Of a DNA stretch of 64,000 nt, positions 33,985 to 52,116 are shown piece by piece. The stretch lies in assembly GCF_009913435.1 (NCBI RefSeq), contig NZ_CP047895.1:876501-940500 (forward strand), in the 5' to 3' direction. Numbering within the stretch: position 1 is the stretch's first letter; the number at the start of each line of letters is the position of its first letter. The stretch is from Sphingomonas changnyeongensis (GTDB taxonomy: Bacteria; Pseudomonadota; Alphaproteobacteria; Sphingomonadales; Sphingomonadaceae). The notes beneath the pieces are model-generated. The model made no database searches, was not told the DNA's origin, and saw only the letters and a program-made list of their open reading frames with translations. A program made the position numbers and the translations under genes.

Positions 33985-33990
33985 CCCTGT

Positions 33991-34013: not shown

Positions 34014-34019
34014 GCGCGG

Positions 34020-35773
34020 ATGGCGGGCGTGGTGCCGCTGGCCCTGGGGCTGGCGGTGGCGCTGACCGCGCTGCAGGTGTTTCTGGCCTGGGCCGATCTG
34101 TCGGCGCGGGTGCTGCCCATGGCCGACGACATGCTGCGCCTGGCCGGGATCCGCGACTGGCTGGCCGGGCAGGCGGCGGGTGACCTGACCCAGCTCCGTC
34201 TCGGCCCGCCGGGCGGCACCGCGCTCGACTGGTCGCGGCTGCCCGATCTGGTGCCGGCGCTGCTTGTCGCCGCGCTGTCGCCCGTGACCGGTCCGGCGCG
34301 GGCCGAGCTGGTGGCGCTGGTGCTGTGGCCCGAGCTGCTGTTTTTTGCCCATATGCTGATCGCCGCGGCGCTGGCGCGCACCCTGGCCGGGCCGCGCGCG
34401 GCGCTGATCGCCGTGGTGCTTGCCGCGCTCGCGACGCCCGCCGCCGCCGCCTTCCGGCCGGGGGCGATTGGCGGGCTGGGCATGGGCATCGTCGCGGTCG
34501 AGGCGGCGATGCTCGCGCTGGTGCGCGGCCGCTTCGGTGCAGCCGGACTGCTCGCGGCGCTCGCGCTCGCCATCGGCCCGGAGGCCACGCCGCCGCTGCT
34601 GGCCGCCCTGGTCGCGCTGATCGGGATCTGGGCGGCGGACCGCCCGGCGGTGACCGGCGGCGCGCTCCTGCGCGGCGGCGCGGGGCTGGCCGCCGGGGCC
34701 GTCGCCGATGCGGTGCTTTTGCCTCAGGGCGGCAGCTGTCCGGGCTTTGCGGTTGGCGGGTCGGGGCGGCGGGCGTGGCCGGGCTGGCGCTGGTCGCGCT
34801 CGGCCTGCTCGCCCCGCGTCTGGCCGATCCGCGCTGGCGGCTGGGCGCGGCGGCGGCGCTCGCCCTGCTCGCATGGGCGGTGATCATGGCGCTGATGCCG
34901 GCCTGCGCAGCCGGAGCCGGTGACGATCCGCTGCTGCGCGCGATCCATCCGGATGGTTTCGGCTTTGCCGCCGCCGGCATCCGCCAGTCGGCGGGGGCAT
35001 GGGTGGCGGCGGCCGGGCTGGGCGCGACCGGGCTGGCCGCCTTTGCCGTGTCGCTGGCGCGCCGCGCTGCGCCCGTGCGCGACCGGCAGGACGACATCTC
35101 CGCGCATGCCGCACAGGCGGCGCTGCTGCTCGCGGCGGGCGTCGCCGGGGCGCTGCTCGGCGGGCTCGCCAACCTGTCGGTTGCGGCCTTTGGCGCGGCG
35201 CTCGCCGTGCCGCTGCTCGCGCGGGCCGTGCTCGCGGTGCTTGGCCGGCGCTGGCCGGCGCGGCTCGGCCTGTCGCTGGCGGCGATCGGGCTCGTCTGGC
35301 AGACGCTCGGCCTCGCGCTCGATCTGGCGCGCGGACGCCCGGCGGCGGTGATGGCGCGCGCCCATGCGGCGATCGGCGCGGGCTGCCAGGCGGCGCGCAC
35401 GCTCGACCAGATCGACCGGCTCGCGCCCGGCACCGTCGCTGCCCCGCCCGAGCTTGGCGGGCATCTGCTGGGGGCGACGCGCCACCGCGTGCTTGCGGCC
35501 CCGGTGGCGGCGGCGCAGGCGGGCAACCGCGCCTGGTATGACCTGATCCTCGCCGCGCCTGACACCGCCCGCTATCAGGCGGCGCTGTGGGCGGTCGATT
35601 ATGTGCTGCTGTGCCCGGAAAGCCTGGCCGATCTGCCGGTGCCGCTGCCGCCGCGCAGCCTTGCCGCGCGGCTGCGCGCCGGCGATGCCCCCGACTGGAT
35701 GGAGCCGGTGCTGATCCTCGGCAGCCGGGCGCGGATGTGGCGGGTCTTGCCGGTGGCGGCGTCCGCCCGGTAG
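34020..35773 (+). CDS. GT-C-like polytopic membrane protein, frameshifted
   Basis: Read with one base restored this is a 584-aa, roughly 11-helix membrane protein. It is a paralogue of the 39486-41288 product: both have DD in the first loop (PMADDMLRLAGIRDWLAGQ versus DTDDNLRMAQVRAWLAGQ), then PPGG...WSR and a C-terminal soluble domain. The Asp pair fits the metal/donor site of GT-C glycosyltransferases. The frame changes at the T4 run 34717-34720; a fifth T joins VLF-ASGRQ, matching FASYANRQ of the paralogue. ATG 33981 overlaps the argG stop, but 34020 after the hairpin fits better. Substrate unknown. Confidence 0.7.
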
Positions 35774-35783
35774 AGGCGCGCGC

Positions 35784-37293
35784 GTGACGTCTTCCCCGAA
35801 CTGGCTCGACCGGCGCGCGACCGCCATTGCCCTGATGCTGCTGGCGGCGCTGCCGCTGCTGTGGCCGCAGGTGCCGCCGCTGATCGACGTGATCGGCCAT
35901 ATGGGCCGGTACCGCGTCGAGACCGCGCGCGATGTCGCCTCACTCGCCACCGGCTTCGGCTTTGAATGGCGGCTGATCGGCAATCTGGGCATCGACCTGC
36001 TGATCCTGCCGCTCGCGCCGCTGATCGGGGTCGAGGCGGGCACCAAGCTGATCGTGATGCTGATCCCGGTGCTGACCGTCGCGGCGCTGCTGTGGCTGTC
36101 GCGCGAGGTGCATGGCCGGGTGCAGCCGCATCTGCTGTTCGCGCTGCCGCTGGCTTACGGCTTCCCGTTCCATTTCGGCTTCATCAATTTCTGCCTGTCG
36201 GTCGCGCTGTCGCTGGCGGCGCTCGCGCTGTGGATCCGGCTCGGGCGGCAGGACAGGCTCAGGCTGCGCGCCGGGCTGTTCCTGGTCATCGGCGCGCTGC
36301 TCTGGGTCGTCCATATGGTCGGCTGGGGGATGCTGGGCATCGGCGCGTTCGGGGCGGAGTTCGTCCGCCTGCGCCGCGCCGGGCGCGGCGTGGTGGCGGC
36401 GGGGCTGGGGGCAGGCATTGCCTGCCTGCCGCTGGCCGCCGCGTTCGGGCTGATGGCGCTCGTCAAAAGCGAATCGCCCCAGGCGCGCAGCTGGGATTTC
36501 TTCAACTGGGGGCCAAGCTCTACTGGGTGCTGTCGCTGCTGCGCGACCGGTGGCGCGATCTCGACATCATTTCGGCCGGCATCGTCTATCTGATGATCCT
36601 GACCGCCTTGGTCGACCGGCGGCTGCGGGTCGATCCGGTGCTGGCGCTGCCAGCGCTGCTCGGGCTGGGGGTGTTCGTGCTGATGCCGCGCGTCGCGGTC
36701 GGCTCGGCCTATGCCGATATGCGGCTTTTGCCCTGGATCGCGATGCTGGCGCTCGCCGCCGTCGCGGTCCGCCCCGGCCATGCGCGGCTGGCGACGGTGA
36801 TCGCGGTCGCGGGCCTGGCCTTTGTCGGGCTGCGCGCCGGCGCGACGACGGCGAGTTTCCTGCTTTACGACCGGCTGCACCGGGACGAGGCGCGCGCGCT
36901 CGATCATCTGCCGCGCGGCGCGCCGGTGCTGTCGCTGGTCGCGCGCAACTGCCGCTGGGAATGGACGACCGCCCGGACCGAGCATCTGCCCGCACTCGCC
37001 ATCGTGCGCCGCGATTCCTTCACCAACGACCAGTGGGCGGTCGACAATGCCCAGCTGATCAGCATCCGCCAGCCGGGCGTCGGCCGTTATGGCCGCGATC
37101 CGTCGCACATCGTCTTCCCCAAATGGTGCCGGGGCGGCGAAGGCTCGGATCTCGACCGCGCGGCTGCCGAGTTCAACCGCCAGGCCTTTGACTATCTCTG
37201 GACGATCCATGCCCCGCCGGGGCGGTGCGCGCCGCCGATCTGACGCTGGTCTGGACGAATGGCCGCTCCGCGCTCTACCGGGTGGTGAAATAG
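35784..37293 (+). CDS. Polytopic membrane protein of the glycosylation locus, frameshifted twice
   Basis: GTG 35784, with GAGG upstream. With two bases restored the product is about 503 aa and has roughly 10 hydrophobic segments. The first break is at the G5 run 36508-36512: a sixth G gives FFNWGAKLYWVLSLL. The second is at G4 37219-37222: a fifth G gives APPGAVRAADLTLVWTNG and the natural end SALYRVVK before TAG 37293. It lacks the DD loop of its neighbours, carrying IDVIGHMGRYRVE instead. The C-terminal soluble part (WAVDNAQLISIRQPG) resembles other sphingomonad membrane proteins of unknown function. An envelope role is inferred from neighbours. Confidence 0.6.
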
Positions 37294-37304
37294 GAAACCC
37301 CGCC

Positions 37305-38366
37305 ATGCGCCGCCCGGATCAGTCGTCAGCCCCGTCGCCCCTGCTGTCCATCGTCGTCCCCTGCTACAATGAGGAGGCGTGCCTGCCCGAGCTGCACCGC
37401 CGCCTGTCTGCGGCGGCGCGCGCGGCGGTGGGCGACGCGCATGAAATCGTGCTCGTCAATGACGGGTCGCGCGATGCCAGCTGGCGGGTGATGCAGACGC
37501 TGGCCGCCGCCGATCCCCATGTCGTTGCGGTCAACCTGTCGCGCAATCACGGCCATCAGCTGGCGCTGACCGCAGGGCTCGATCTGTGTGGCGGCGCGCG
37601 CATCCTGATCATCGATGCCGATCTGCAGGACCCGCCTGAGCTGCTGGGCGCGATGATGGCCGAAATGGACGCGGCCGAGGCCGATGTCGTCTATGCGGTG
37701 CGCCGCCAGCGCGAGGGCGAGACCTGGTTCAAGCGGGCGAGCGCTGCCGGTTTCTACCGGCTGCTGTCGCGGCTGTCGCCGACGCCGATCCCGGTCGATA
37801 CCGGCGATTTCCGGCTGATGAGCCGCCGCGCGCTCGACGCGCTGCTCAGCCTGCCCGAACAGGCGCGCTTCATCCGCGGCATGGTGGCGTGGATCGGCTT
37901 CCGCCAGGTCCCGTTCCTTTATGATCGGGCCGAGCGTCATGCCGGCACGTCCAAATATCCGCTGGCGAAGATGATCGCCTTCGCGCTCGATGCGGTGACC
38001 GGATTTTCGGTCGCGCCGCTGCGGCTGGCGAGCCATTTCGGCCTCTGGCTGGGGGCCGCGTCGGTGCTGCTGCTCGGCTATATCCTGATCGCCTGGGCGC
38101 GCGGGGCGACGGTCGAGGGCTGGACCTCGCTGATGTTCGTCGTCGTGACGCTGGGCGCGGTGCAGATGTTCGTGCTCGGCATGATCGGCGAATATCTGGG
38201 CCGGCTCTATATCGAGGCGAAGCGGCGGCCGCTCTATCTGGTCGCCGACATTGTCGGCGGCGACCATGACGGCCGCCGCGCCTCGGCCCGGCTGGGCTAT
38301 GTCGCGGGCGATGCGATGGCGACGAACGACACGCCCGGCGGCATCGGCACGCGCCCGACCAGATAG
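37305..38366 (+). CDS. Family 2 glycosyltransferase, GtrB/ArnC-type polyprenyl-phosphate transferase
   Basis: 353 aa from ATG 37305. LLSIVVPCYNEEACLPELHRR near residue 15 and VLVNDGSRDASW open the GT-A domain. IIDADLQDPPELL near 105 has the DXD-like Asp, and GDFRLMSRRALDAL near 170 is conserved. Two C-terminal membrane segments near 240-262 and 275-300 anchor it, as in GtrB, ArnC and DPM1-like enzymes. It would make undecaprenyl-phosphate-sugar, the donor for GT-C enzymes on the outer face of the inner membrane. Its 3' end overlaps the convergent methyltransferase gene by 70 bases. Confidence 0.88.
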   Translation: MRRPDQSSAPSPLLSIVVPCYNEEACLPELHRRLSAAARAAVGDAHEIVLVNDGSRDASWRVMQTLAAADPHVVAVNLSRNHGHQLALTAGLDLCGGARILIIDADLQDPPELLGAMMAEMDAAEADVVYAVRRQREGETWFKRASAAGFYRLLSRLSPTPIPVDTGDFRLMSRRALDALLSLPEQARFIRGMVAWIGFRQVPFLYDRAERHAGTSKYPLAKMIAFALDAVTGFSVAPLRLASHFGLWLGAASVLLLGYILIAWARGATVEGWTSLMFVVVTLGAVQMFVLGMIGEYLGRLYIEAKRRPLYLVADIVGGDHDGRRASARLGYVAGDAMATNDTPGGIGTRPTR

Positions 38367-39027
38367 CGTTCCAGCCCGAATATCCCCTCGAACAGCGCAT
38401 TGAGCGGCGCGGGCGGCAGCGCGTCGTCGCTCGACGTGCGGCCGGTCAGCCGCCCGGCGATGCGCGCCGCCGCTGCAAGCGGGAACAGCAGCGCGTTGAA
38501 CGGGCTGAACAGCTCAAGCTTCAGCCCGGCATCTGCGATCACCGCCTTGAGCGCGCGCGCGGTGTAGCGGCGCTGGTGATGATTGACCTCGTCATGCGCG
38601 CTCCACATCCAGGGATGGGCGGGGACGGTGATCAGGATCCGCCCGCCGGGCCTGAGCGTCTGAGCGATGCGGACCAGCGAGGCGCGGTCATCGACGACAT
38701 GTTCGATCACGTCGAGCACCGCGACCAGATCATAATGCGCGTCGGCGACGCCCGCGAGCGCGGGCAGCGGCGCGTCGAGCACCGGCTTGCCGAACCGGGC
38801 GCTCGCCAGCGCACGCGCCTCCGCATCGATCTCGATCCCGTCGACGCTGCCGAACCGGGCGAGCATGGCGAGGTTGTGGCCGGTGCCGCAGCCGATTTCG
38901 AGCAGCCGGGCATTGGCGGGCAGGGGATGTGGCGGGCGATCAGCCCAGCCAGGATCTCGCGCCGGGCGCGATACCACCAGTGGCGGCTGTCCAGCTCCGC
39001 CATGCGGTCATAGACGATGCGTTCCAT
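38297..39027 (-). CDS. Class I SAM-dependent methyltransferase, frameshifted
   Basis: With one base restored the product is 243 aa. It begins MERIVYDRMAELDSRHWWYRARR, a start common to sphingomonad methyltransferases, and after the break continues ANARLLEIGCGTGHNLAMLARF (motif I), VLDVIEHVVDDRASL (motif II region) and RPGGRILITVPAHPWMWS. The break is at the plus-strand G4 run 38923-38926; a fifth base on the coding strand gives RHIPLPANARLL in frame. ATG 39027 overlaps the gtrA stop (ATGA), so it is co-translated with gtrA. Acceptor unknown, possibly a lipid-linked sugar. Confidence 0.75.
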
Positions 39028-39440
39028 CAGCCGAACACCCAGTTGCGGTTGAGCAGGAAGGTGACGACCGGCGTCACGAACACCATCGGCACCACCGCCC
39101 ACCATGGCTCGCCGCCCGCCAGGTCGGTCAGCGACCAGACCCACAGGCTGTTGAGGCTGAAGCTGACCAGCGAGACGATGACGAAGCGCCCGGTGGTGCG
39201 CGCCACATTGTCGCGCCGGCCATGGCCGCGAAAGCTCCAGCGGCTGTGCATGACATAGCCGATCAGCGCCGCGACCAGATAGGCAAGCACATTGGCGGCA
39301 AGCGGCGGCACGCCCATGAACTGCGCCGGCACCGCATAGACGGCCGCGCCCAAAAGGGTGACGAAGCCGCCGGTGATCAGGAATCGCACCAGCTGGCCAT
39401 AGAGCGCGCGCTGTTCGGGCGGAATCCGCGCCATCAGCAT
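39027..39440 (-). CDS. gtrA: GtrA-family membrane protein
   Basis: 137 aa from ATG 39440 (39434 also possible; the open frame to 39503 would overlap the divergent gene). Four hydrophobic segments (LVRFLITGGFVTLLGAAVY, AANVLAYLVAALIGYVMHS, FVIVSLVSFSLNSLWVW, VVPMVFVTPVVTFLLNRNWVF) fit GtrA exactly, including the terminal NRxWVF. GtrA proteins are thought to flip polyprenyl-phosphate-linked sugars. With the GtrB-like GT2 and the GT-C proteins nearby this makes a gtrABC-like set. Confidence 0.88.
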   Translation of the reverse strand: MLMARIPPEQRALYGQLVRFLITGGFVTLLGAAVYAVPAQFMGVPPLAANVLAYLVAALIGYVMHSRWSFRGHGRRDNVARTTGRFVIVSLVSFSLNSLWVWSLTDLAGGEPWWAVVPMVFVTPVVTFLLNRNWVFG

Positions 39441-39485
39441 ATCGAATGGTTCACCTTTCACGCCGACCGCCCTAATGCGCTCGTC

Positions 39486-41288
39486 ATGCAATGGGAACCG
39501 CAACGTCGCGCCGATGATCCGTTACAGCCGGTCTGGGACTGGCTGGGGCGGCACTGGCAGGCCGTGCTGGTGATCTGTTGGCTGCTGCTGTGCGCCTGGA
39601 TGCTGTCGGAGCGCGCGGGCGCGATCCGCGGCTTCGCCCTGCCCGACACCGACGACAATCTGCGCATGGCGCAGGTCCGCGCCTGGCTGGCCGGGCAGGA
39701 CTGGTTCGACCTTCGCCAGATGAAGCTCAACCCGCCGGGCGGCTTCAACATCCACTGGTCGCGGATCGTCGATCTGCCGATCGCGGCGCTGATCCTTGGC
39801 CTGCGCCCGTTCATCGGTGGGGCGATGGCGGAAAAGGCGGCGGTCGCGATCGCGCCGATGCTGCCGCTGCTGCTCGCGATGTTTTCGCTGGCGCTGGCCG
39901 CGCGGCGGCTGGTCGCGCCCGGCGCATGGCTGCTCGCTGCCGCGCTTTTGCCCTTTGCCCATGGCACGATGGGCATGTTCCGCCCGCTCAGGATCGATCA
40001 TCATGGCTGGCAGCTGGCGCTGCTCGCGCTCACCATCGCCGCACTGGCCGATCCGCGGCGCGGGCGCGGGGGCATGGTGGTGGGCATCGCCAGCGCAGTG
40101 TCGCTGGCGATCGGGCTTGAGCTGCTGCCCTATATCGCGGTCGCAGGGGCCTCGATCGTGCTGCGCTGGGTCGTCCATGCCGATGCGCGGCCGCGCATGC
40201 TTGCCTATGCGCTGTCCTTCGGGCTGGCGACGATTATCGCCTATGTCGTCTTTGCCTCCTATGCCAATCGCCAGCCGCTGTGCGACGCGCTGACCCCGGT
40301 GTGGCTGACGACGGTTGCGGTCGCCTGTCTGGCGGTTGCCGCCATCGGGATCGCCCCGGCCGAGACATGGCGCGGCCGCTTGCTGTTCGCGGGCTTTGCC
40401 GGGGCGGCGACGCTCGCTTTTTTCTGGTTCGCCTGGCCCGGCTGCCATGGCCGGCCCGAGGGCGTGTCGCCCGAACTCTACCGGCTGTGGCTGGGCAATG
40501 TCCGTGAGGCCAAGCCGCTGTTCGCGCAGGACTGGCCGCTGTTCACCGGGCTGTCGGTGCTGCCGGCGCTGGGGCTGGGCGGGGCGGCTTACTGCCTGTG
40601 GCGTGCGCGCGGCACCGAGACGGTCTATCCCTGGCTGTCGGTGATCGTGATGTCGCTGTTCTCGGTCGCCATGCTGGTCTGGCAGGTGCGCGCCGGGCCG
40701 GCGTCGCAGCTGATCGGCCTGTTCGGCTGCGCCGGGATGGTGTGGACGCTGGTGCTGCGCGCGCGCGCCTCGACCCGGCTGCTCGTGCGGGTCATTGTGC
40801 CGGCGGGGCTGCTGTGCGCGGTTCCTGCGGCAAGCCTGGTCGGCGCGCTGCCTATCTATCCCAAATCGCGCCCCGGCCCGCTGCGCGCCAAGATCAACCG
40901 CGCCAGCCGGCTGTGCCCGACGCTGGCCGCGCTGGCCCCCATAGGCCGCCTGCCGGCGACGACCATCTTCACCTTTGTCGATCTCGGCCCCCGGCTGATC
41001 ACCGTCACGCATCACAAGGCGATTGCCGGCCCGTACCACCGCAATGGCGACGCGATCCTCGACGTCCATCACGCCTTTGACGGCACGCCGGAGCGCGCGC
41101 GCGCGATCATCCGCGCGCATGGCGCGACGCATCTGCTGGTCTGCCCCTATCTGCCCGAATCGACGGTCTACAAGGCGCGCAGCCCCAAGGGCTTTTACGC
41201 ACGGCTGGAGCGCGGGGAGCGGTTCGACTGGCTGGAGCCCGTCACCCTGCCCGCAAAATCGCCCTATTGGCTGTGGCGGCTGCGTTAG
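39486..41288 (+). CDS. GT-C-like polytopic membrane protein (intact paralogue of 34020-35773)
   Basis: 600 aa from ATG 39486, 45 bases from the divergent gtrA start. About 11 membrane segments precede a C-terminal soluble domain of about 130 residues (LITVTHHKAIAGPYHRNGDAI...). The loop after helix 1 has DTDDNLRMAQVRAWLAGQ and NPPGGFNIHWSRIVDLP, with an Asp pair placed like the catalytic acidic residues of GT-C enzymes. RIDHHGWQL near residue 175 is also distinctive. It is probably the GtrC-like transferase using the lipid-P-sugar made by the GT2. Annotation as glycosyltransferase is inference. Confidence 0.68.
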   Translation: MQWEPQRRADDPLQPVWDWLGRHWQAVLVICWLLLCAWMLSERAGAIRGFALPDTDDNLRMAQVRAWLAGQDWFDLRQMKLNPPGGFNIHWSRIVDLPIAALILGLRPFIGGAMAEKAAVAIAPMLPLLLAMFSLALAARRLVAPGAWLLAAALLPFAHGTMGMFRPLRIDHHGWQLALLALTIAALADPRRGRGGMVVGIASAVSLAIGLELLPYIAVAGASIVLRWVVHADARPRMLAYALSFGLATIIAYVVFASYANRQPLCDALTPVWLTTVAVACLAVAAIGIAPAETWRGRLLFAGFAGAATLAFFWFAWPGCHGRPEGVSPELYRLWLGNVREAKPLFAQDWPLFTGLSVLPALGLGGAAYCLWRARGTETVYPWLSVIVMSLFSVAMLVWQVRAGPASQLIGLFGCAGMVWTLVLRARASTRLLVRVIVPAGLLCAVPAASLVGALPIYPKSRPGPLRAKINRASRLCPTLAALAPIGRLPATTIFTFVDLGPRLITVTHHKAIAGPYHRNGDAILDVHHAFDGTPERARAIIRAHGATHLLVCPYLPESTVYKARSPKGFYARLERGERFDWLEPVTLPAKSPYWLWRLR

Positions 41289-41335
41289 AGCGGTTTCCAG
41301 TCGGCGGAATCACCTGACGGCTCGAAAACCGCTCT
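41287..41335. terminator. Inverted repeat between convergent GT-C and marC genes
   Basis: AGAGCGGTTT (41287-41296) pairs with AAACCGCTCT (41326-41335) around a 29-base loop. It begins inside the GT-C stop codon and ends within the last bases before the marC stop, exactly between converging genes. The AGAGCGGTTTnC/GnAAACCGCTCT word is common as an intergenic element in alphaproteobacteria. It may stop transcription in both directions or be a REP-like sequence. Confidence 0.55.
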
Positions 41336-41954
41336 AGCTGAGCGCGCCGCGAATGCCGTCGATCACGAACTGGACGGCCAGCGCCGCCAGGATGACGCCG
41401 AGCACGCGGGTGATCATCGCCTCGATCTTGTGGCCGACCAGCCGCATCAGCGGCCCGGCGACCAGCAGCGCCACCATGGTGAGCAGCAGCACGCCGCCCA
41501 GCGCCGCCAGCACGGTCAGGCTTTCCGACCATCCGGTGCCGCGCGACATCAGCAGCATGGCGCTGGCGATCGATCCGGGCCCGGCGATCATCGGGATGCC
41601 CATCGGAAACACCGACACATCCTCGATCGCGGGCTGGGCCTTCACCTCCTCGGCACGCGATTCGCGGCGTTCCTGGCGCTTCTCGAACACCATTTCGAGC
41701 GCGATCAGGAACAGCATCACCCCGCCCGCGATGCGGAATGCATCAAGGCTGATGCCCAGCGCGCGCAGGAACACCTCGCCGAAAATCGCAAAGGCGAACA
41801 GGATGGCGGCGGCGACCATGACCGACCGGATCGCCATCGCGCGGCGGTGCGCGGGCGTCGCGCCCGCGGTCAGGCTGGCGAAGATCGGCGCGCAGCCCGG
41901 CGGGTCGATGACGACGAAAAACGTCGCAAAGGCGGAGGCGAACAGCTCGATCAT
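41334..41954 (-). CDS. marC: MarC-family integral membrane protein
   Basis: 206 aa with six hydrophobic segments. FFVVIDPPGCAPIFASLTAG near the start and PMGIPMIAGPGSIASAML near residue 115 are the two MarC/UPF0056 signature half-repeats. Family function is unsettled; the old link to multiple antibiotic resistance has not held, so no transport substrate is claimed. It is followed upstream by folD, yggT and argB on the same strand, a common alphaproteobacterial order. Confidence 0.9.
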   Translation of the reverse strand: MIELFASAFATFFVVIDPPGCAPIFASLTAGATPAHRRAMAIRSVMVAAAILFAFAIFGEVFLRALGISLDAFRIAGGVMLFLIALEMVFEKRQERRESRAEEVKAQPAIEDVSVFPMGIPMIAGPGSIASAMLLMSRGTGWSESLTVLAALGGVLLLTMVALLVAGPLMRLVGHKIEAMITRVLGVILAALAVQFVIDGIRGALS

Positions 41955-41961
41955 CGGGTCG

Positions 41962-42852
41962 TCACAGCCCGGCGGGGATCGGCTGGCCGTGGCGGCGGCA
42001 GGCCGACACCAGGGTGTTGCGCAGCAGCACGGCGATGGTCATCGGGCCGACGCCGCGCGGCACCGGGGTGATCGCGCCGGCAACCGCGCGCGCTGAATCG
42101 AAATCGACATCGCCGACCAGCCGGGTCTTGCCCGGCTCGGCCCCCGCGACGCGGTTGATCCCGACATCGATGACGGTCGCGCCGGGTTTCAGCCAGTCGC
42201 CCTTGACCATCAGCGGCCGGCCGACGGCGGCGACGACGATATCGGCGCGGCGGCACAGCGCCGGCAGGTCGCGGGTGCGCGAATGGGCGATGGTCACGGT
42301 CGCGCTTTCGGCGAGCAGCAGCTGCGCCATCGGCTTGCCGACGATGTTGGACCGGCCGATCACCACCGCATCCAGCCCCGACAGGTCGCCCAGCTCGGCC
42401 TTCAGCAGCATCAGGCAGCCAAGCGGTGTGCAGGGGACGAACCCGTCCAGCCCGATCCCCAGCCGCCCGACATTGAGCGCGTGAAAGCCGTCGACATCCT
42501 TGTCCGGGTCGATCGCGTCGATCACCGCCTGGGCGTCGATCTGCGCGGGCAGCGGCAGCTGGACGAGGATGCCGTCAACCGCGGGATCGGCATTCAGCCG
42601 GGCGATGAGCGCGAGCAGCGAATCCTGTTCGGTTTCGGCGGGCAGCCGGTATTCGGTGCCGGCCATGCCGGCCTCGCGCGTCGCCTTGCCCTTGGCGCCG
42701 ACATAGACCTGGCTTGCCGGATCCTCGCCGACCAGCACCACCGCCAGGCCCGGCGCGCGGCCGATCCGTGCCTTGAGCGCTTCGGCCCCTTCGGCCACCC
42801 GGGCGCGCAGCCCGGCGGCAAAGCCATGCCCGTCGATGATCCGCGCCGCCAT
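41962..42852 (-). CDS. folD: Bifunctional methylene-THF dehydrogenase / methenyl-THF cyclohydrolase
   Basis: 296 aa. [17 protein letters not shown] near residue 45 contains the catalytic Tyr and Lys. [12 protein letters not shown] near 97 and [17 protein letters not shown] near 165 (NADP-binding) are classic FolD motifs, followed by [18 protein letters not shown] near 265. It interconverts 5,10-methylene-THF and 10-formyl-THF, feeding purine synthesis and formylation. The start is ATG 42852, ten bases after yggT. Confidence 0.96.
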
Positions 42853-42862
42853 CGTCCGCCCC

Positions 42863-43159
42863 TCAGACGCCCAGATACATGGAGGCGAGCTGGGTGCGGA
42901 GCAGCCGGTCGATCAGGCCGATCACCAGCAGCACCACCAGCGGCGACAGGTCGAGCGCGCCGAGATCGGGCAGGATGCGCCGGATCGGCCGGTAGAGCGG
43001 GGTCGTCAGCCGGTCGAGCGCCTCGAAGATCGACCGCACGACATCGTTATAGGTGTTGATCACGTTGAACGCGACCAGCCAGGACAGCACCGCCTGGATG
43101 ATGATGATCCACCAGATAATGTTGATGATGTAGAGCAGGGCGGTCAGGATCAGGGTCAT
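42863..43159 (-). CDS. yggT: YggT-family membrane protein
   Basis: 98 aa, two hydrophobic segments ([23 protein letters not shown] and [17 protein letters not shown]) joined by a loop with [23 protein letters not shown], the YggT/Ycf19 signature PxxRPxRRxxPxxG-xDxSP. In plants and cyanobacteria relatives help assemble membrane complexes; in proteobacteria a role in osmotic stress has been suggested. It sits between argB and folD. Confidence 0.93.
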
Positions 43160-43218
43160 GTCGGGTCGTTATCCTTGATCTGTCGTCGGGTGCCAGGCGG
43201 TCGGTGGTCGGTCCCCGG

Positions 43219-44124
43219 TCACGCCCGGACGAGCGTGCCGACGCCGCGGTCGGTGAACATTTCGAGCAGCACCGCATGGGGCACGCGGCCGTCGAGGATC
43301 ACCGCCGCATCGACCCCGTTGGCCACGGCGTGCAGGCAGGTTTCCAGCTTGGGTATCATGCCCCCGCTGATCGTGCCATCCTCGCGCAGGCGGCGCACCT
43401 GATCGGGGCCGATATCGGTCAGCAGCTGGCCGGATTTGTCGAGCACACCCGCCACATCGGTCAGCAGGAACAGCCGCGCCGCGCCCAGCCCAGCAGCCAG
43501 AGCGCCGGCCATGGTGTCGGCATTGATGTTGTAGGTCTCGCCCTTGTCGTCGACGCCGATCGGCGCGACCACCGGGATCATGCCGGCGATTTCCAGATGA
43601 TCGATCAGCGTGGTGTCGACCGAAACCGGCGCGCCGACAAAGCCCAGATCGACGATCGTCTCCTCGTCGCGGTCGGCGTCATAGGTGACATGTTCGAGCT
43701 TTTCGGCGCGCACCAGCTTGCCGTCCTTGCCCGAAATGCCGACCGCCCGGCCGCCCGCCTGGTTGATCCAGGTGACGATTTCCTTGTTGATCGTGCCCGA
43801 CAGCACCATTTCGGCAACCGTCGCGGTTTCCGCGTCGGTCACGCGCAGGCCGTTCACAAACTCCGACTGGACGCCCAGTTTCTTGAGCATCGAGCCGATC
43901 TGCGGGCCGCCGCCATGGACGACGACCGGGTTGATGCCGATCGCCTTCAGCAGCACGACATCCTGGGCAAAGCTGGCGGCAAGCGCGGGATCGCCCATCG
44001 CATGGCCGCCATATTTGACGACAAAGGTCTGGCCGGCATAGCGCTGCATATAGGGCAGCGCCTCGATCAGAATGTCGGCGCGCGACACGGGTCCGGGCTC
44101 GGCAGGGTTCGGGGCAGGCGTCAT
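43219..44124 (-). CDS. argB: Acetylglutamate kinase
   Basis: 301 aa from ATG 44124, which overlaps the transporter stop as [16 protein letters not shown] near residue 36 (Lys), [17 protein letters not shown] near 65 and GLRVTD near 90 are ArgB motifs. [18 protein letters not shown] near 192 and [16 protein letters not shown] near 213 complete the amino-acid-kinase fold. It phosphorylates N-acetylglutamate, the second step of arginine synthesis and often the arginine-inhibited one. The open frame runs on upstream in this frame to 44919, but that is antisense-like sequence inside yhhQ. Confidence 0.96.
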
Positions 44125-44828
44125 CAGGCAATTTCCATCGGGCGGGCGTCGAGGCGGCGGGCAAGCCCCACCAATATATAGATGAGCGCCGGCACCAGCA
44201 GCGCCGACAGCGTGACCTTGGCCAGCATCTGCCCGGCGATCAGTTCGCCGATCGGGAAGACGCCGTAAAAGGCGATGGTGACGAACAGCAAGGTGTCGAC
44301 GATCTGCGACAGGATGCTGGCAATGCCGGCGCGCAGCCACAGCCCCCGGCTGCCCGCACCGCCCTTGCTGCCCTTCAGCCAGGAAAACAGCGTGACGTTC
44401 AGCGTCTGCGACGTGCCATAGGCGATGATGCCGCCCAGCCAGATCCGCCATGTCTGGCCCATCATCAGCTGGAAGGCGTCGCGATAGGCGGGGTCCATGT
44501 CGGGCGCGGGCGGCAGCGACCAGACGATCAGCGACAGCAGCAGCGACACGATCAGCGGCACGAACCCGATCCGCACCAGCCGGTTGGCGATCGCCTGTCC
44601 GTAAAGCTCGGCGACCGCGCTTGAAATCACGACCAGCAGCAGAAAGGCGAAAATGCCCGCCTCGACTGCCAGCGGCCCGATCGCCACCTGCTTGTTGCCA
44701 AGGACGCCGGCGATGCACACCATCCCGCCGTAAAGAATGGCGAACAGGAACAGCGACGGCGATGGCATCGGGGCCGGCGAAGCCGGGGGCATCGGGGCCG
44801 GCGAAGCCGGGGCGGCGGGTTCGGTCAT
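44124..44828 (-). CDS. yhhQ: Queuosine precursor transporter (YhhQ family)
   Basis: 234 aa from ATG 44828. After a repetitive Pro/Ala stretch ([15 protein letters not shown]) come six membrane segments. [21 protein letters not shown] and [17 protein letters not shown] near residues 45-80 match the Vut_1/YhhQ family, with the conserved Glu in AEh[21 protein letters not shown] near 185 is also typical. It would import preQ0/preQ1 for tRNA queuosine. An in-frame extension to 45119 reads through repeat A and is not family-like. Confidence 0.88.
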
Positions 44829-44850
44829 GGCGCCTGCTAACGGGTTTGCG

Positions 44851-45053
44851 CGGCGGGGTCCATATTGGCGGGGCGGCGGTCCACGCCCTTGACCTCGCTC
44901 CGGTGCTCCGCGCGGGCATGCAGGTGCGAGACGTCGGGGCTTCTTTGGCTTATGGGATTTGGCCTTTGTCCCAAAGTCCCGAGCCTCGGCAACAGTCCGC
45001 TTTTGCACCTCTTTCGAAAAAACTTGACAGTCTGAAACCGACCCCGAAGCGGT
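44851..45053. repeat. Direct repeat A (left flank of cargo 1)
   Basis: Matches 45833-46035 over 203 bases without indels and about 16 substitutions. It starts CGGCGGGGTCCATATTGGCG, contains the run TTCTTTGGCTTATGGGATTT and ends near CCGACCCC. It codes for nothing convincing; the minus-strand reading gives a long open frame only because it is stop-poor. Confidence 0.88.
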
Positions 45054-45093
45054 CATTAGCAAGGGCGCTGAGACTGTTGCAGCTAATGGCAGG

Positions 45094-45512
45094 TCAACGC
45101 GGCTCCACCGAAGGAACAACTACGGTAGGACGGTAGGCCTGATCGATGAAGCTGAGGCACCAATTCATAGTTAGAAACAAGCCCGCTTCGCTTTGGGGAT
45201 CGATCCTGATCCGGCAGATGTAATCGTCCCCTTCGGCATTAGGGGCATCGTGATAAAGGTATGCAATTGCTGCCTCACCTGCCCCATACTGGAGGGTTGT
45301 CATGGCTATTTGACCACCCTGTGAATGCTGGCGGGCCGAGGTCGTGCGCTTCAACGGTTCAGGTTCCTGGTCAATCAGCTGCTCAAGGGTTGCCTTGGTC
45401 TCCTCAGCAGAGGGGCACGAAAGATGTCAGCTTCATGGCCCCCTCGGTCTTCGTTCGAGAAAGAGAACGCTGGGGCTAGGGACGCGCCAACAAGCAGCAA
45501 GAGCTTGAACAC
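45094..45512 (-). CDS. Small secreted hypothetical protein, frameshifted (cargo 1)
   Basis: GTG 45512 follows AAGGAG with a seven-base spacer. The start encodes a clear signal peptide, FKLLLLVGASLAPAFSFS. The frame then breaks; adding one base at the G4 run 45412-45415 joins HEADIFRAP to SAEETKATLEQLIDQEPE and on to the stop at 45094, giving 139 aa. The mature part has two Cys (YICRI and NWCLSF). No family is recognised. It lies between repeats A and C, and its base composition is visibly less GC-rich than that of the flanking core genes, suggesting transfer. Confidence 0.55.
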
Positions 45513-45570
45513 ACGACATCTCCTTCCGAACCTGGCAGCCCACTGGTTACATGAAGTAGTGGCAGAAAAC

Positions 45571-45830
45571 CACCCATCTGCGGTCATTGGGCGCTTTCGC
45601 TTTCACTCCCGACAGCGGACATGGCATCAGGCTTCCGTGCCGCCTCCTTGGCCTTTGCCGGACGCGAGGCCATCGGTGAAAGCTGCACGAAATCAGATAT
45701 CTGAAACCTATCTGTCGGTCCCGCGCGACTTTCCCCATTGGCGCGCCGCCGTGTAGCCGAGATAGCCGGTTGCAAACAGCGCGTAGAGCGGCTCGGGCAG
45801 GCTTGCCAGATAGGCGCCCATGTCCTGGGC
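45571..45830. repeat. Direct repeat C (includes a truncated holin 3' end)
   Basis: 260 bases matching 46966-47225 with about 13 substitutions and no indels. Its right part (to about 45709) encodes on the minus strand the last 37 residues of the 3TM holin (MGAYLASLPEPLYALFATGY...KSRGTDR), identical at protein level to the full gene at 47.1 kb. At 45831 the match stops inside that gene and repeat B begins almost at once. This is a duplication junction and a holin fragment, not a separate gene. Confidence 0.9.
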
Positions 45831-45832
45831 GG

Positions 45833-46035
45833 CGGCGGGGTCCATATTGGCGGGGCAGCGGTCCACGCCCTCGACCTCGCTCCGATGCTCCGCGCGGCCG
45901 GGCAGGCGCGAGACGTCGGGGCTTCTTTGGCTTATGGGATTTGGCCTTTGTTCCAAAGTCCGAAGCCTCAGGAACAGTCCGCTTTCGCACCTCTTTCGAA
46001 AAAACCTGACAGGCTGAAACCGACCCCAAAGCGGC
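45833..46035. repeat. Direct repeat B (left flank of cargo 2)
   Basis: Second copy of the 44851-45053 sequence at a constant offset of 982 bases. It is fused to the right end of repeat C, so C plus B form one 465-base unit between the two cargo genes. Copy A lacks the C half and copy D lacks the B half. Confidence 0.88.
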
Positions 46036-46117
46036 CTTCGCATGAGGCACCTGATGAAGGCGTGATTGAATGTCCTAGCTATCTCAAGTATGCAGGAGTG
46101 CTGGCTTAGAGAAACGT

Positions 46118-46954
46118 ATGACCAGCACCCTTCCTCCCGTTCACGCCGCTTTTGTCGCACGCATCCTCGCGGCGGTGAAGCATCATCCGTATGTCGACGG
46201 TCTGCTTGCGGGTGGCTCGTTCATCCATGGCGGATTGGACGAACACTCGGATCTGGATTTCGTCCTCGTGATCGACGAGGTTGCATATCCGCAGGTCATG
46301 AATTCACGAATGGCATTTGCACAAAGCCTGGGCACGCTGATCAGCGCCTTTTCGGGAGAACATGTGGGCGAGCCGCGCTTGCTGATCTGCCTTTACGGGC
46401 CCCCGCTGCTCCACGTGGACCTGAAATTCGTGACTGCATCCGATCTTGATCACCGAATCGAGATGCCTGCGGTGCTGTTTGCGCGCGATCGCGAACGCAT
46501 CGCGGCACAGCTTGGCGCCGCGACGATCGCTTGGCCCAACATGAGCCCGGACTGGTTCGAAGCACGCGCCTGGATTTGGCTGCACTACGCCGCCACCAAG
46601 CTGCTGCGCGGCGAACTGTTCGAAGCGGTTGGCATGCTTTCCTTCTTCCGTGAACAGGTGCTCGGTCCGATGCTATACCGCCGGGCAGGTCTGCCGCAGC
46701 GCGGGGTCAGACGGATCGAGATGCTTGGCCTCGACGGGGACAAAGCGCTTGCATCGACAGCGCCGCAGCTTGAGGCTGCGTCGGTCAGAGCTGCGCTTCT
46801 ATCGGCGCTTAACTTGTATCTCCAACTTCGGGCGGATGCGCCGCCGCAGAACGCCACCGATGGTATGCCGTCTATGTTGCTGAGCTTTCTTGGAGCTGAC
46901 CTGTCTTGCTCGAACGTCATCTCGGTTCCAGACGCACAGGACGTGATTGATTGA
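46118..46954 (+). CDS. Nucleotidyltransferase-domain protein (cargo 2)
   Basis: 278 aa. GLLAGGSFIHGGLDEHSDLD near residues 29-48, with following FVLV, is the pol-beta-type nucleotidyltransferase motif (hGS-x9-13-DhD), and HVDLKFV near 103 supplies the third Asp. The C-terminal half is helical (WFEARAWIWLHYAATKLLRG), as in aminoglycoside or small-molecule nucleotidyltransferases. I cannot name a substrate; antibiotic adenylylation is possible but not shown. It lies between repeats B and D, reads opposite to its neighbours and is less GC-rich, so recent acquisition is likely. Confidence 0.75.
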   Translation: MTSTLPPVHAAFVARILAAVKHHPYVDGLLAGGSFIHGGLDEHSDLDFVLVIDEVAYPQVMNSRMAFAQSLGTLISAFSGEHVGEPRLLICLYGPPLLHVDLKFVTASDLDHRIEMPAVLFARDRERIAAQLGAATIAWPNMSPDWFEARAWIWLHYAATKLLRGELFEAVGMLSFFREQVLGPMLYRRAGLPQRGVRRIEMLGLDGDKALASTAPQLEAASVRAALLSALNLYLQLRADAPPQNATDGMPSMLLSFLGADLSCSNVISVPDAQDVID

Positions 46955-46965
46955 CGGCAGCTTCC

Positions 46966-47225
46966 CACCCATCTGCGGTCATTGGGCGCTTTCGCTTTCA
47001 CTCCCAGCAGCGGACATAGCATCAGGCTTCCGTGCCGCCTCCTTGGCTTTTGCCGGGCACAAGGCCATTGGTGAAAGCTGCATAAAATCAGATATCTGAA
47101 ACCTATCTATCGGTTCCGCGCGACTTTCCCCATTGGCGCGCCGCCGTGTAGCCGAGATAGCCGGTTGCAAACAGCGCGTAGAGCGGCTCGGGCAGGCTTG
47201 CCAGATAGGCGCCCATGCCCTGGGC
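46966..47225. repeat. Direct repeat D (overlaps the intact holin gene)
   Basis: Right-hand copy of the 45571-45830 sequence at a constant offset of 1395. Unlike C, it continues into the complete holin coding sequence, so it marks the ancestral locus and C the derived fragment. Confidence 0.9.
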
Positions 47226-47516
47226 GATGGCCGCGCCGAAGCGCGGTGACAGCGCGCTGATCAGCCCCATCGGGATCGACCACAGCAGCAGCGCATAGAT
47301 CACATAGAGAAAGGCCGGCCGGGCCCGGCTGGTCCAGGGATCGGCCGCGCCGGCTTCGGCCAGGATCGCCGACATCTGCATGCGCAGCGCGTCCAGTTCC
47401 TGCGTGCCTTCGAGCCGCAGCAGTTCGAGCTTGGCCGCGTCGCGGGCGCGCGGGTCCGGGATCACCCGGTCGATCAGCCGGGCGACGGGGCCGATCAGGC
47501 CATCAAGCACGGGCAT
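47103..47516 (-). CDS. 3TM-family phage holin
   Basis: 137 aa from ATG 47516. An amphipathic N-terminus (ARLIDRVIPDPRARDAAKLELLRLEG) precedes WTSRARPAFLYVIYALLLWSI and then two further hydrophobic segments. WxxRxRPxFLYVxY is the signature of the GTA/3TM holin family. It would permeabilise the inner membrane so that the adjacent endolysin reaches the wall. The start lies 14 bases inside the endolysin 3' end. Only these two lysis genes are present, with no other phage genes around. Confidence 0.85.
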   Translation of the reverse strand: MPVLDGLIGPVARLIDRVIPDPRARDAAKLELLRLEGTQELDALRMQMSAILAEAGAADPWTSRARPAFLYVIYALLLWSIPMGLISALSPRFGAAIAQGMGAYLASLPEPLYALFATGYLGYTAARQWGKSRGTDR

Positions 47517-48117
47517 GGGCGTCGTCTCCGGCAAGGGGGATGGTCCTGGGGGCGTCGGTCGGGCGCGGTGCCGCCGCCTGGCCGATGCGGTGGGCGAGCC
47601 AGCCATAGACAAAGGCCTCATTGGCCGGGCGCGTTTCGGCGAGGCGCAGATAGCGTTCGCCCTGCAGCGATTCGACCGCCTTCACCAGCACCGTCTCGCC
47701 CGCCTGTCCGCGTGTGGCCAGAAAGCCGTCGATCGCTGAGAGCGTCCGTGGCCCGATCCGCCCGTCAATGGCGATATCGGCATAATCGCGCGCGCCGCGG
47801 TTGAGCGCGTTGAGCGCACGCTGGAGAAAGCCGATCGCGGTGCGCGGCCCCATATTGACCCCGGTGTCGAACATCTCCGCCGCCAGCAGCGGCGCGCGGG
47901 TGCCGACCGCATCGAGGCGGGGCCTGAGCCAGTATATGCGCCGGTAAATCTCCGCCGCCGCCGCCCGGGAGAGGGTGCTGACCGGCCCGGCATGGCCGTG
48001 CGCGCGCGCCGTGGCGGCGGTGATTCCCCATTTGGTCGGCCCGCCGCGGTCGGCGGGGTGATCGACATAGCCGCCCTCCCGCGCGATCACTGCGTCGATC
48101 AGTTCGTCCACCATCAC
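47503..48117 (-). CDS. GH108 endolysin / N-acetylmuramidase-like protein
   Basis: 204 aa. REGGYVDHPADRGGPTKWGIT near residues 13-33 holds the catalytic Glu of glycoside hydrolase 108 (ZliS/secretion-activator family). AAEMFDTGVNMGPRTAIGFLQRALN near 85-110 continues into the C-terminal peptidoglycan-binding PG_binding_3 domain (DGRIGPRTLSAIDGFL). No signal peptide, as expected where a holin releases the enzyme. With the holin it forms a lysis pair. Confidence 0.88.
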   Translation of the reverse strand: MMVDELIDAVIAREGGYVDHPADRGGPTKWGITAATARAHGHAGPVSTLSRAAAAEIYRRIYWLRPRLDAVGTRAPLLAAEMFDTGVNMGPRTAIGFLQRALNALNRGARDYADIAIDGRIGPRTLSAIDGFLATRGQAGETVLVKAVESLQGERYLRLAETRPANEAFVYGWLAHRIGQAAAPRPTDAPRTIPLAGDDAHARA

Positions 48118-48181
48118 TGCGCCGCTCCTGGTTTGAACAGGGCGGCAGGAATAACCAGATAGGTTATATGTAGGACAGAAA

Positions 48182-48210
48182 AAAATCCTCCCCGCGAAAG
48201 GGAGGATTTT
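48182..48210. terminator. Bidirectional intrinsic terminator after tRNA-Pro
   Basis: AAAATCCTCCC (48182-48192) pairs with GGGAGGATTTT (48200-48210) around CGCGAAA. A-rich and T-rich ends give a T tract on both strands. It is placed immediately downstream of the leftward tRNA-Pro gene and 65 bases upstream of the endolysin start. Confidence 0.9.
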
Positions 48211-48211
48211 T

Positions 48212-48288
48212 TGGTCGGGGCGACAGGATTCGAACCTGCGACCCCCACACCCCCAGTGTGATGCGCTACCAGGCTGCGCTACGCCCCG
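48212..48288 (-). tRNA. tRNA-Pro (anticodon GGG), CCA encoded
   Basis: From 48288 on the minus strand: CGGGGCGTAGCGCAGCCTGG, anticodon loop CTGGGGG (anticodon GGG), T-arm CAGGTTCGAATCCTG, acceptor stem CGGGGCG with CGCCCCG, discriminator A and encoded CCA at 48214-48212. 77 bases, a full cloverleaf, followed by a strong terminator. Confidence 0.96.
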
Positions 48289-48350
48289 ACCGGAGGGCGC
48301 GACATATGCGCCCGCGCCGCCAAAGGCAAGCGGGCTTGAAACCGCCGGGC

Positions 48351-49151
48351 TCAGCCGGCGCGCTTGGCCTCGGGCATATGCTCGCCGATCAGCCGATAGG
48401 CGCGCTCATACCATTTGCTGCCGGGGTAATTGGCGCCCAGCACGGCGGCGGCCTTTTTCGCCTCTTCGGGCACGCCCAGCGCCAGATAGCTCTCGGTCAG
48501 CCGCAGCAGCGCTTCGGGCGTGTGGGTGGTGGTCTGATATTCGTCGGTGACCTTGCGGAACCGGTAGGTCGAGGCCAGCCACTGGCCGCGCCGCTGGTAG
48601 AAGCGGCCGACCTCCATCTCCTTGCCGGCAAGATGGTCGTTGATCAGGTCAAGCTTCAGCCGCGCGTCGCGGGCATAGGCGGTGTTGGGATAGCGGCGCG
48701 TCAGCTCGCCCATGGCATTCAGCGCCTGCTGGGTCAGCTTCTGGTCGCGGGTGACGTCGCTGATCTGCTCGTAATAATCGAGCGCGATCAGATAATAGGC
48801 ATAGGGCGCGTCCTTGTTGCCCGGATGGAGCGACAGGAAGCGCTGCGCCGAGCTGATCGATTCGTTGTAATCGCCCGACAGATAATAGGAAAATGCGCTC
48901 ATCAGCTGGGCGCGCCGCGCCCAGACCGAATAGGGGTGCTGGCGCTCGACCTCGTCGAACAGCTGCGCGGCTTCCTTGTAGCGGCGCGTGTCGAGCCGCG
49001 CCTTGGCCGCCGAGTAAAGCGTGTTCACATCGCGCGCGATATAGGCGGTGTCGCGCTTCGGCCCGCTGGTCGCGCAGCCGGACAGAGCGAGCATGACGGC
49101 AAGACCGGCACAGGCGGCGAGACCAAGCGGGCGGGAGAAGCGGAAATCCAT
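48351..49151 (-). CDS. bamD: Outer-membrane protein assembly factor BamD
   Basis: 266 aa from ATG 49151; longer frames add low-complexity residues before the signal. The signal has lipobox LSGC ([13 protein letters not shown]). Five TPR-like repeats follow: [35 protein letters not shown], then [19 protein letters not shown] and on to [14 protein letters not shown], the YfiO/BamD layout. It is a lipoprotein of the BAM complex that supports BamA in inserting beta-barrels. Confidence 0.95.
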
Positions 49152-49170
49152 GGGGCCTGTCCTAACGCCT

Positions 49171-49551
49171 TTAAATCCGGGGGGGCAAGCCGTGCGGCAG
49201 CAGCGCGGCGGCGATCCAGCGCCCTTCGCCGCGCAGCACGCCCCAGGCGCGGGCGGCGGCGCGGCTGTCCATCGCCTCGATGCCGATGCCTTCGGCCTCG
49301 ATCGCGGCCGCAAGCGCCGGGGCGGGGCGCACGAGCACCGGCCCGGTGCCGATCAGGATGAACTCGGGCCTGAGCGCGATCAGCGGCGCGAGCAGATCAA
49401 GATCGAGCGATGTCGCCTCGATCGGCCGCCACCAGTCGGGCGAAAGCAGCGCGCCGCCGCTGGTCGCCACGCCGTCGATCCGGAAGCCGGGGCCGGCAAA
49501 GCCGGTGATGACCGGGCCGGGCGCCCGGGCCTCTGGGCGCAGCTCGGGCAT
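49171..49551 (-). CDS. Mth938-like / DUF498 domain protein
   Basis: 126 aa from ATG 49551, overlapping the secF stop as ATGA. The fold shows VITGFAGPGFRIDG at the start, then LSPDWWRPIEATSLDL, and RPEFILIGTGPVLVRPAPAL near residue 65, the NDUFAF3/Mth938 core. The family includes a mitochondrial complex I assembly factor; the bacterial role is unknown. Position after secF is the common alphaproteobacterial arrangement. Confidence 0.88.
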   Translation of the reverse strand: MPELRPEARAPGPVITGFAGPGFRIDGVATSGGALLSPDWWRPIEATSLDLDLLAPLIALRPEFILIGTGPVLVRPAPALAAAIEAEGIGIEAMDSRAAARAWGVLRGEGRWIAAALLPHGLPPRI

Positions 49552-50522
49552 CAGTCGGGCCGGCGTTCCGCGCCGCCGATCCGCTCCGCCCCCGGCTCCG
49601 CTCCCGATTTGGGGACGAAGCTTTCGCCGGTCACGTTCAGCCACAACAGGATCGGGGCGGAAATATAGATCGACGAGAAGGTGCCGATGATGATGCCGAG
49701 CAGCATCGCGGCGGTGAAGCCGAAGATCACATCCGGCCCGATCGCGAGCAGCAGGCCCAGCGTCATGATCAGCGACAGCGAGGTGACGATAGTGCGCGAC
49801 AGCGTTTCGTTGACCGACAGGTCGAGCAGGGTGCGCATGTCCATCTTGCGGTATTTGCGCAGATTCTCGCGGATGCGGTCATAGGTGACGATGGTGTCGT
49901 TGAGCGAATAGCCGATGATCGTCAGGATCGCCGCGACGACGTTGAGGTCGAAATCAAGCTGGGTCAGCGCGAAAAAGCCGAAGGTCAGCGCCACGTCGTG
50001 GAACAGCGCGAACAGCGCCCCCACCCCGAACTGCCATTCAAAGCTGAACCAGATATAGAGCGCGATGCCGAGCATCGCGAGGCCGAGCGCCCAGGCCCCG
50101 GTGCGGAACAGCTCGCCCGACACCTTGCCCGACACCGTTTCCACCGCGTCGAAGCGCGCGCCCGGAAACGCCTTGCCGACCGCTTCGCGCACCTGGCTGG
50201 CGGCACGGTTCGCGCCCTCCTCACCGCCCGGCGGCAGCGGCAGCCGGATCGACATGTCGCGCGGCGAGCCGAATTGCTGGATCGTCGCCTCGCCCAGCCC
50301 CAGCCGGTCGACCGTGGTGCGCAGCGCCTCGGCATCGACCGGGGTCGCGAACTGCACGCGCAGCATCTGCCCGCCGACAAAATCGACGCCGAGATTGAGC
50401 CCGCGCACGCCCACCAGCACGCCCGAGCCGAGGATCAGCACGACCGACAGCACGAGCGCCACAATCCGGTAGCGCAGGAACTGGATGTTGGTGTTGTCGG
50501 GAACGAGTTTGAGCGGACGCAT
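49551..50522 (-). CDS. secF: Protein-export membrane protein SecF
   Basis: 323 aa. Six membrane segments. GVDFVGGQMLRVQF near residue 30 is the SecF version of the D1 motif, and GYSLNDTIVTYDRIRENLRKY near 210 is the highly conserved D4/D5 block. With SecD it uses the proton gradient to finish Sec-dependent translocation on the periplasmic side. ATG 50522 overlaps the secD stop. Confidence 0.95.
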   Translation of the reverse strand: MRPLKLVPDNTNIQFLRYRIVALVLSVVLILGSGVLVGVRGLNLGVDFVGGQMLRVQFATPVDAEALRTTVDRLGLGEATIQQFGSPRDMSIRLPLPPGGEEGANRAASQVREAVGKAFPGARFDAVETVSGKVSGELFRTGAWALGLAMLGIALYIWFSFEWQFGVGALFALFHDVALTFGFFALTQLDFDLNVVAAILTIIGYSLNDTIVTYDRIRENLRKYRKMDMRTLLDLSVNETLSRTIVTSLSLIMTLGLLLAIGPDVIFGFTAAMLLGIIIGTFSSIYISAPILLWLNVTGESFVPKSGAEPGAERIGGAERRPD

Positions 50523-52116
50523 CAGATCACGATCTCTTTCGGGCGGTTGCGCTTCAGCCAGTCCGCGACCAGCAGACGGGTGAAGGTCACGCCGGTGAAC
50601 ACGGAGGTGACGATCCCGATCGCCAGCACGACCGCAAAGCCGCGCACCGGGCCGGAGCCGAACACGAACATGATGATCGCCGAAATCACATTGGTGACAT
50701 TGGCGTCGAAGATCGCGCGGCTTGCCTCCTTATAGCCGAACTCGACCGACTGGATCGGGCCGCGCCCGCGCCGCTGTTCCTCGCGGATGCGCTCGTTGAT
50801 CAGCACATTGGCGTCGACCGCCGCACCGATGGTCAGCACGAAGCCGGCAATGCCGGGCAGGGTCAGCGTCGCGCCGATCATCGCCATGATGCCGAGCACC
50901 AGGAACGCGTTCACCGCCAGCGCCAGCGACGTGTAGACGCCGAACCGCGCATAGGTGACCAGCATGAACAGGATCAGCGCCACCGTCGCGACGATGCCGG
51001 CGATCACGCCCTTGCGGATCGAATCGGCCCCAGATCGGGGCCGACCGTGCGTTCCTCGATCACCTTGAGCGCGACCGGCAGCTTGCCCGAGCGCAGCGCG
51101 ATCGCCAGCTGGTTGGCGCTTTCAACGGTGAAATTGCCCGAAATCTGCGCCTGGCCGCCCAGGATCGGTTCGTTGATGTTGGGGGCCGAGATCACCTGAT
51201 TGTCGAGGATGATCGCGAACGGCTTGTTGACATTTTCCTGCGTCACCCGCGCGAATTTGCGCCCGCCCGCGCCGTCGAACCGGATGTTGACCACCGGGGC
51301 GTTGGTGCGCTGGTCGAACCCCTGCGAGGCGTCGATCAGCTGGTCGCCCGAAATCAGCACGCTGCGCTTGACCGCGATCAGCGGCACGCCCAGCGGATTG
51401 TCGGGATAGGGCAGGATCTGGCTGCCGACGGGCGCGCGGCCCTGCGCCAGATCGGTCGGGCTGGCGGCGATGTCGACCAGCTTGAACTCAAGCTTGGCGG
51501 TCTTGCCGAGCAGCGCCTTGAGCGCTTCGGGGTTCTGCAGGCCCGGCACCTGCACGACGATGCGTGCCCGGCCCTGGCGGATGATCGTCGGCTCGCGCGT
51601 GCCCAGCTCGTCGATGCGCTTGCGCACCACCTCGGTCGCGACCTGCATCGCCTTGTCGACGGCATCGGCAAGGCCCGCCTCGGTCGGCGTCACGATCACG
51701 CGGTTGGAATCGACAACGCGCACATCCCAGTCGCGCTGGCCGGTCACGCCGACGCCGGTCGTCAGCGCGCGGACGCGCTCGACCGCCGGGTCGACCTGGC
51801 CCGCGTCGCGGACGAAAAAGCTGATCCGGCCGCTGGCGGTCGAAATATCGCCGATCGCGATGCGCGGCTGGTTGCGGCGCATTTCGGTGCGGATCGTTTC
51901 TTCCATCTGGGCCAGCCGCTGCTTGGCGACATCGGCGGTGTCGGCTTCGAGCAGGATGTGGCTGCCGCCCGACAGGTCGAGGCCCAGATTGATGCGCGGG
52001 CTGGGCAGGCCGGCCGGCCACAGCCGTTCGGGCACCAGGCTCGGCACCGCGAACAGGATGCCGATGACGGTCGTGACGATGACCGCCCAGATCTTCCAGC
52101 GCGGGAAATCGAGCAT
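50522..52116 (-). CDS. secD: Protein-export membrane protein SecD, frameshifted as read
   Basis: Two frames make one SecD. The upstream part (51004-52116) has the first membrane segment, LGLDLSGGSHILLEAD, and the P1 periplasmic domain up to IEERTVGPDLG. The downstream part (50522-51007) has IAGIVATVALILFMLVTYARFG, TLPGIAGFVLTIGAAVDANVL and FTRLLVADWL. A missing base at the C4 run 51028-51031 (GGGG on the coding strand) breaks them; restoring it gives DLGADSIRKGVIAG, the conserved junction, and a 531-aa protein. SecD is needed for efficient export, so a true knockout is improbable. ATG 52116 overlaps the yajC stop. Confidence 0.93.

Follow-up and report, generated by a model that had tools for sequence, protein, structure and literature searches.

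The window analysed here, a stretch of 64,000 nt from the genome of Sphingomonas changnyeongensis, contains five genes that are interrupted by six breaks of the reading frame, all of them within 16.3 kb (Table 1). The runs printed at the six coordinates are T4, G5, G4, G4, G4 and C4, as listed in the first-pass annotation, and the breaks interrupt real genes, as was established by alignment with the congeneric genome G003 for four sites and by homologues for the other two.

Table 1. Genes of the window that are interrupted by frame breaks
Gene	Position	Strand	State in the printed sequence
Membrane-protein-like gene, two pieces (246 + 350 codons)	33981..35773	+	Split in two frames near 34717-34720 (T4)
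503-aa gene (length in G003), no Pfam hit	35784..37293	+	Read in three frames, with the joints at 36508-36512 (G5) and 37219-37222 (G4)
Methyltransferase gene (PF13489)	38297..39027	-	Two pieces, interrupted at 38923-38926 (G4); putative start codon at 39027
139-aa family gene, no Pfam hit	45094..45512	-	86-aa ORF as printed; frame broken at 45412-45415 (G4)
secD	50522..52116	-	Two pieces, interrupted at 51028-51031 (C4); adjoins secF; putative start at 52116, from the stop of the preceding gene

The genome itself (3.0 Mb in 2 contigs, estimated completeness 99.35%) was compared with G003 (280 contigs, 80% complete), to which it is ~92% (91.7%) identical in DNA sequence where aligned, with 98% identity between the SecF proteins. 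The best named SecF matches came from Sphingomonas, Sphingobium and other Sphingomonadaceae at ≤75% identity, in a set from which records of the genome itself were possibly left out. Pieces of the blastn alignment that were shorter than 300 bases, below 85% identity or overlapping a longer piece were dropped, and the remaining pieces covered 132,073 bases. Of these, 31,503 lay in the window; the rest came from 13 of 17 stretches (20 kb each) sampled elsewhere in the genome, the other four giving no alignment. The G003 sample consisted of 103 stretches, each from a different contig of the ~280 and some cut at 20 kb, with a total of 966,918 bases.

At all four sites that could be compared, G003 is free of the break and its frames are open, while longer relatives are known for the genes at the other two. 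That the close relative does not share the breaks is what consensus error predicts. The alignment places the window one base short at 36510, 37223, 38924 and 51029, in agreement with the positions first proposed. The 503-aa gene is represented in G003 by one open frame of 504 codons (stop included) running across both break positions, and tblastn with its product located residues 1–242, 197–480 and 478–503 in successive frames of the window, joining at the breaks. The same arrangement was seen for the methyltransferase (one open frame of 283 codons including the stop in G003), with residues 1–76 and 74–282 in successive window frames that join at the break, and for SecD (one open frame of 462 codons, stop included, counted from a downstream start), with residues 1–304 and 301–472.

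Both pieces of the membrane-protein-like gene match successive parts of a paralogue at 39264-41285, as well as successive parts of three homologues of 592–606 aa; no useful name for these two membrane-type proteins was returned by Pfam and NCBIfam. The G003 contig C201 stops at window position 34603 and contig C242 aligns only from 34845, and since the G003 DNA skips this site, the break near 34717 was placed by homology only, to within less than base precision. C242 itself opens with 243 bases (L131:1-243) that are without a match to the window, and a database protein from this contig starts in sequence of a different family (PF06041, P0013); an erroneous join made in assembly, at the edge of the contig, may be the reason.

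Ten further proteins in the database, of 139 aa in nine cases and 138 aa in one, match the 86-aa ORF with 54–93% identity (sequences were read for six of the ten), and their N-terminal part is encoded in the neighbouring frame, upstream of the break at 45412. The printed ORF is therefore the C-terminal fragment of a longer protein, for which the Pfam and NCBIfam search gave no useful family name. All ten relatives lie on contigs of ≤9,711 bases. The region around this gene and the ORF at 46118-46954, which is nucleotidyltransferase-like by the look of its sequence, contains two pairs of long direct repeats between 44850 and 47231 (276 nt, 93%; 203 nt, 92%), which gives the appearance of a cassette that was duplicated and then interrupted, and a muramidase-like gene (47506-48117; NF040573, score below the cut-off) lies alongside.

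It had been proposed that every frame is repaired by adding one base to the run. The loss of one base was borne out at the four sites covered by G003, but at three of them (36508, 38923 and 51028) the addition of a base to the run is only one possible account, as the extra base in G003 differs from the run letter. Either a substitution in the lineage of the window lengthened the run, which would have raised its error-proneness, or a neighbouring base was lost; these three sites fit pure homopolymer loss only if an extra substitution is allowed for.

Raw counts of frame switches were of no use, as gene overlaps are indistinguishable from breaks in them, and were replaced by overlap length and alignment. 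A frame model based on codon usage, in which switches were counted only if both frames continue for >45 bases, by itself picked out three of the six breaks (34717, 36508 and 38923) and missed the other three, with the break at 45412 located where the model calls non-coding sequence. At the remaining direct frame switches of the window, the frame ends after no more than 35 bases and a start codon lies close by, like at normal gene junctions, with the exception of a switch of 63 bases at 30530; there the start lies at the usual 4-base overlap and no frame-changing indel relative to G003 is present, so that the alignment indicates a normal gene overlap. Given this overlap and the three missed breaks, the frame model was used as a rough measure.

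Losses prevail in this one-sided way beyond the window as well, as consensus error predicts. Within sequence that is coding in G003, isolated one-base indels in the aligned 132 kb amounted to 16 losses versus a single gain (two-sided sign test on 16/17, ~0.0003), and 15 of the 16 losses were located in or beside G/C runs of 3–5, while G/C runs of ≥3 make up ~10% of the aligned coding bases. Outside coding sequence or at its edges, 10 losses and 7 gains were found; the underlying table leaves out compound gaps, and its labels are unreliable near gene edges. Gene splits were confirmed for 11/16 coding losses, the others being L143:1091, L137:19566, L145:13194, L148:17000 and L134:2110, and the split was likewise unconfirmed for the sole coding gain (L137:10453).

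A tblastn search with 12 G003 ORFs found 11 of them split in our genome and one ambiguous, with a total of 14 frame changes (four in the window), every one of which goes in the direction of loss. For eleven of these the DNA alignment has an isolated one-base loss at the same place. The other three are compound, namely the change in a TonB receptor, one of the pair in a PQQ enzyme and one of the pair in L263:2750-5224, where the second change carries a length difference of ~56 bases and is thus not a clean one-base loss. Cleanly split genes include murD, an error-prone DNA polymerase and a metZ-like (O-succinylhomoserine sulfhydrylase-like) gene. The Mur ligase middle domain is split at C1 100,319-100,686, and four other Mur ligase matches have open frames, with a second murD possibly among them; similarly, the other polymerase III alpha match is open. 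A murA-like ORF of G003 (L137:9606-9968) has no counterpart to residues 92–233 in the corresponding stretch, and this case (L137:9701) is odd in G003 itself and was given little weight.

The G003-aligned sample thus contains 11–14 frame changes in 132 kb, or 8 to 11 per 100 kb, as compared to 9.4 per 100 kb in the window (6 breaks in 64 kb). The notion of the window as a hot spot of damage was rejected on these figures: the breaks are not local, and the window is an average sample of the genome. Candidates of the frame model occurred in 12 of the 17 stretches sampled outside the window (not all confirmed). With the window included, the count was 23 candidates in 404 kb of our genome (21 of the loss type; 5.7 per 100 kb), among them the normal overlap at 30530, versus 11 in 682 kb of G003 (8 of the loss type; 1.6 per 100 kb, contigs ≤9 kb excluded). 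Samples of 100 kb each from G007, G013 and G021 gave 0, 1 and 0 candidates, respectively.

Losses per run rise with length, at 2/622, 9/151 and 4/23 for presumed true G/C lengths of 4, 5 and 6, as calculated from all 15 G/C losses on the assumption that the lost base equals the run letter, and with only runs that are wholly aligned and coding by the model in the denominators. A general shortening of long G/C runs in the consensus was considered but not borne out, as G/C runs of 5, 6 and 7 occur at 123.8, 20.8 and 2.2 per 100 kb in the sample of our genome and at 124.8, 22.0 and 2.5 per 100 kb in G003, a normal spectrum by a test that does flag another genome, G012. Unlike G012, the consensus is thus affected mildly rather than grossly.

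Taken together, the indels are mostly single-base losses, lie in homopolymers and more often in longer ones, are spread regardless of gene importance (murD and secD included) and are absent from G003 at 4/4 comparable sites, which is the pattern expected of homopolymer error. We consider it very probable that the five genes are intact and that six places of the printed consensus each lack one base through homopolymer undercalls of long reads. A long-read consensus would under-count short homopolymers, mostly G/C runs with a true length of 4–6; polishing with accurate reads may have been absent or incomplete, and the residual undercalls would leave about ten frame breaks per 100 kb across the genome. 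The use of long reads is suggested by the assembly in 2 contigs, and G003, to judge from its 280 contigs, was probably sequenced by other means. Reads would then be expected to show one more base at the runs. Several observations sit less easily with consensus error: the normal run spectrum means that the errors are sparse and leave longer runs without visible shortening, the extra base in G003 differs from the run letter at three sites, gene splits were unconfirmed for five coding losses and the gain, the second piece of the gene broken at 34717 has a high ratio of amino-acid to synonymous changes, and 8/11 of the candidates in G003 are also of the loss type.

The first-pass annotation had preferred consensus error to real decay, and this preference is supported by the intact frames of G003 and the one-sided losses elsewhere, with the dependence on run length by itself also fitting real slippage. 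A recent decay, in which the lineage lost genes through frameshift, is very improbable. Each break taken singly would look identical under decay, and since G003 is a separate lineage (91.7% identity), its intact copies are compatible with a very recent break. The excess of 16 losses over 1 gain speaks against decay, as do the genes that were hit: the cell wall depends on MurD and good growth on SecD, so that breaks in murD and secD are hard to credit as real, with the reservation of a possible second murD. Neither relaxed selection nor other disabling changes of the kind expected in pseudogenes were found in the codon comparison with G003, which covered 37,404 codons with 1,936 amino-acid and 6,104 synonymous-only changes, and in which the single nonsense substitution (L148:10615) lies in a gapped stretch. 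Amino-acid change is low in secD (9 amino-acid versus 61 synonymous changes) and in the 503-aa gene (11 versus 66), and the ratios for these genes and the methyltransferase (13 versus 41) are within the range of unbroken neighbours. It is higher in the gene broken at 34717, the second piece of which has the highest ratio among the listed window segments (49 versus 65), but also in its unbroken paralogue, which is close in ratio (80 versus 111).

Less probable again is a mismatch-repair mutator strain with true contractions of runs, or phase variation based on such runs. The climb of the loss rate with run length would fit a mutator; such a strain is, however, expected to give gains as well as losses and to strike long runs most, and here the losses are one-sided and runs of 6–7 are present at normal frequency. 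Disabling of mutS or mutL was not found, the frames of MutS (887 aa) and MutL (665 aa) being open without stops, and phase variation is not expected in murD or secD. The faintest chance is left to the view that the printed run lengths are right and that slippage of RNA polymerase or the ribosome restores the frames. The pieces of secD appear to be conserved together, as do those of the 503-aa gene, which recoding would produce as well, but G003 reads the four comparable sites in one frame, and the printed runs are only 3–5 long, whereas frame-restoring slippage is known from much longer runs; an equally small probability goes to a lineage in which hundreds of breaks in short runs, those of murD and secD among them, are tolerated or recoded through systematic slippage of the frame on G/C runs.

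If consensus error is accepted, the phenomenon is technical and of low biological interest, and its consequence is a warning on quality, in that a genome with a completeness score of 99.35% yet carries perhaps one false frame break in about every ten kb. The advice to treat claims of absent proteins with care holds, and any claim of a missing protein, a pseudogene or two separate genes in this genome needs comparison with relatives first.

A similar situation is described in the Kastor report (PMC12007338), according to which errors of long-read sequencing are mostly short indels in homopolymers, with deletions after runs, and such errors frameshift or fragment many genes while completeness scores can be too good. 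Our genome resembles this description in the single-base homopolymer deletions that split otherwise intact genes and in a completeness score that flatters the state of the genes, and differs from it in that the printed runs are only 3–5 long, the run spectrum is normal and the errors are known from the assembly alone. The comparison with G012, a genome of the same family in one contig, shows a likeness in the many candidate breaks, mostly of the loss type (24 of 32 in 100 kb), and a difference in the runs, as G/C runs of 5 are down to 21 per 100 kb in G012 and its 100-kb sample contains no run of ≥6, while our genome has kept them; the consensus of G012 is badly affected, and far worse than that of the genome described here.
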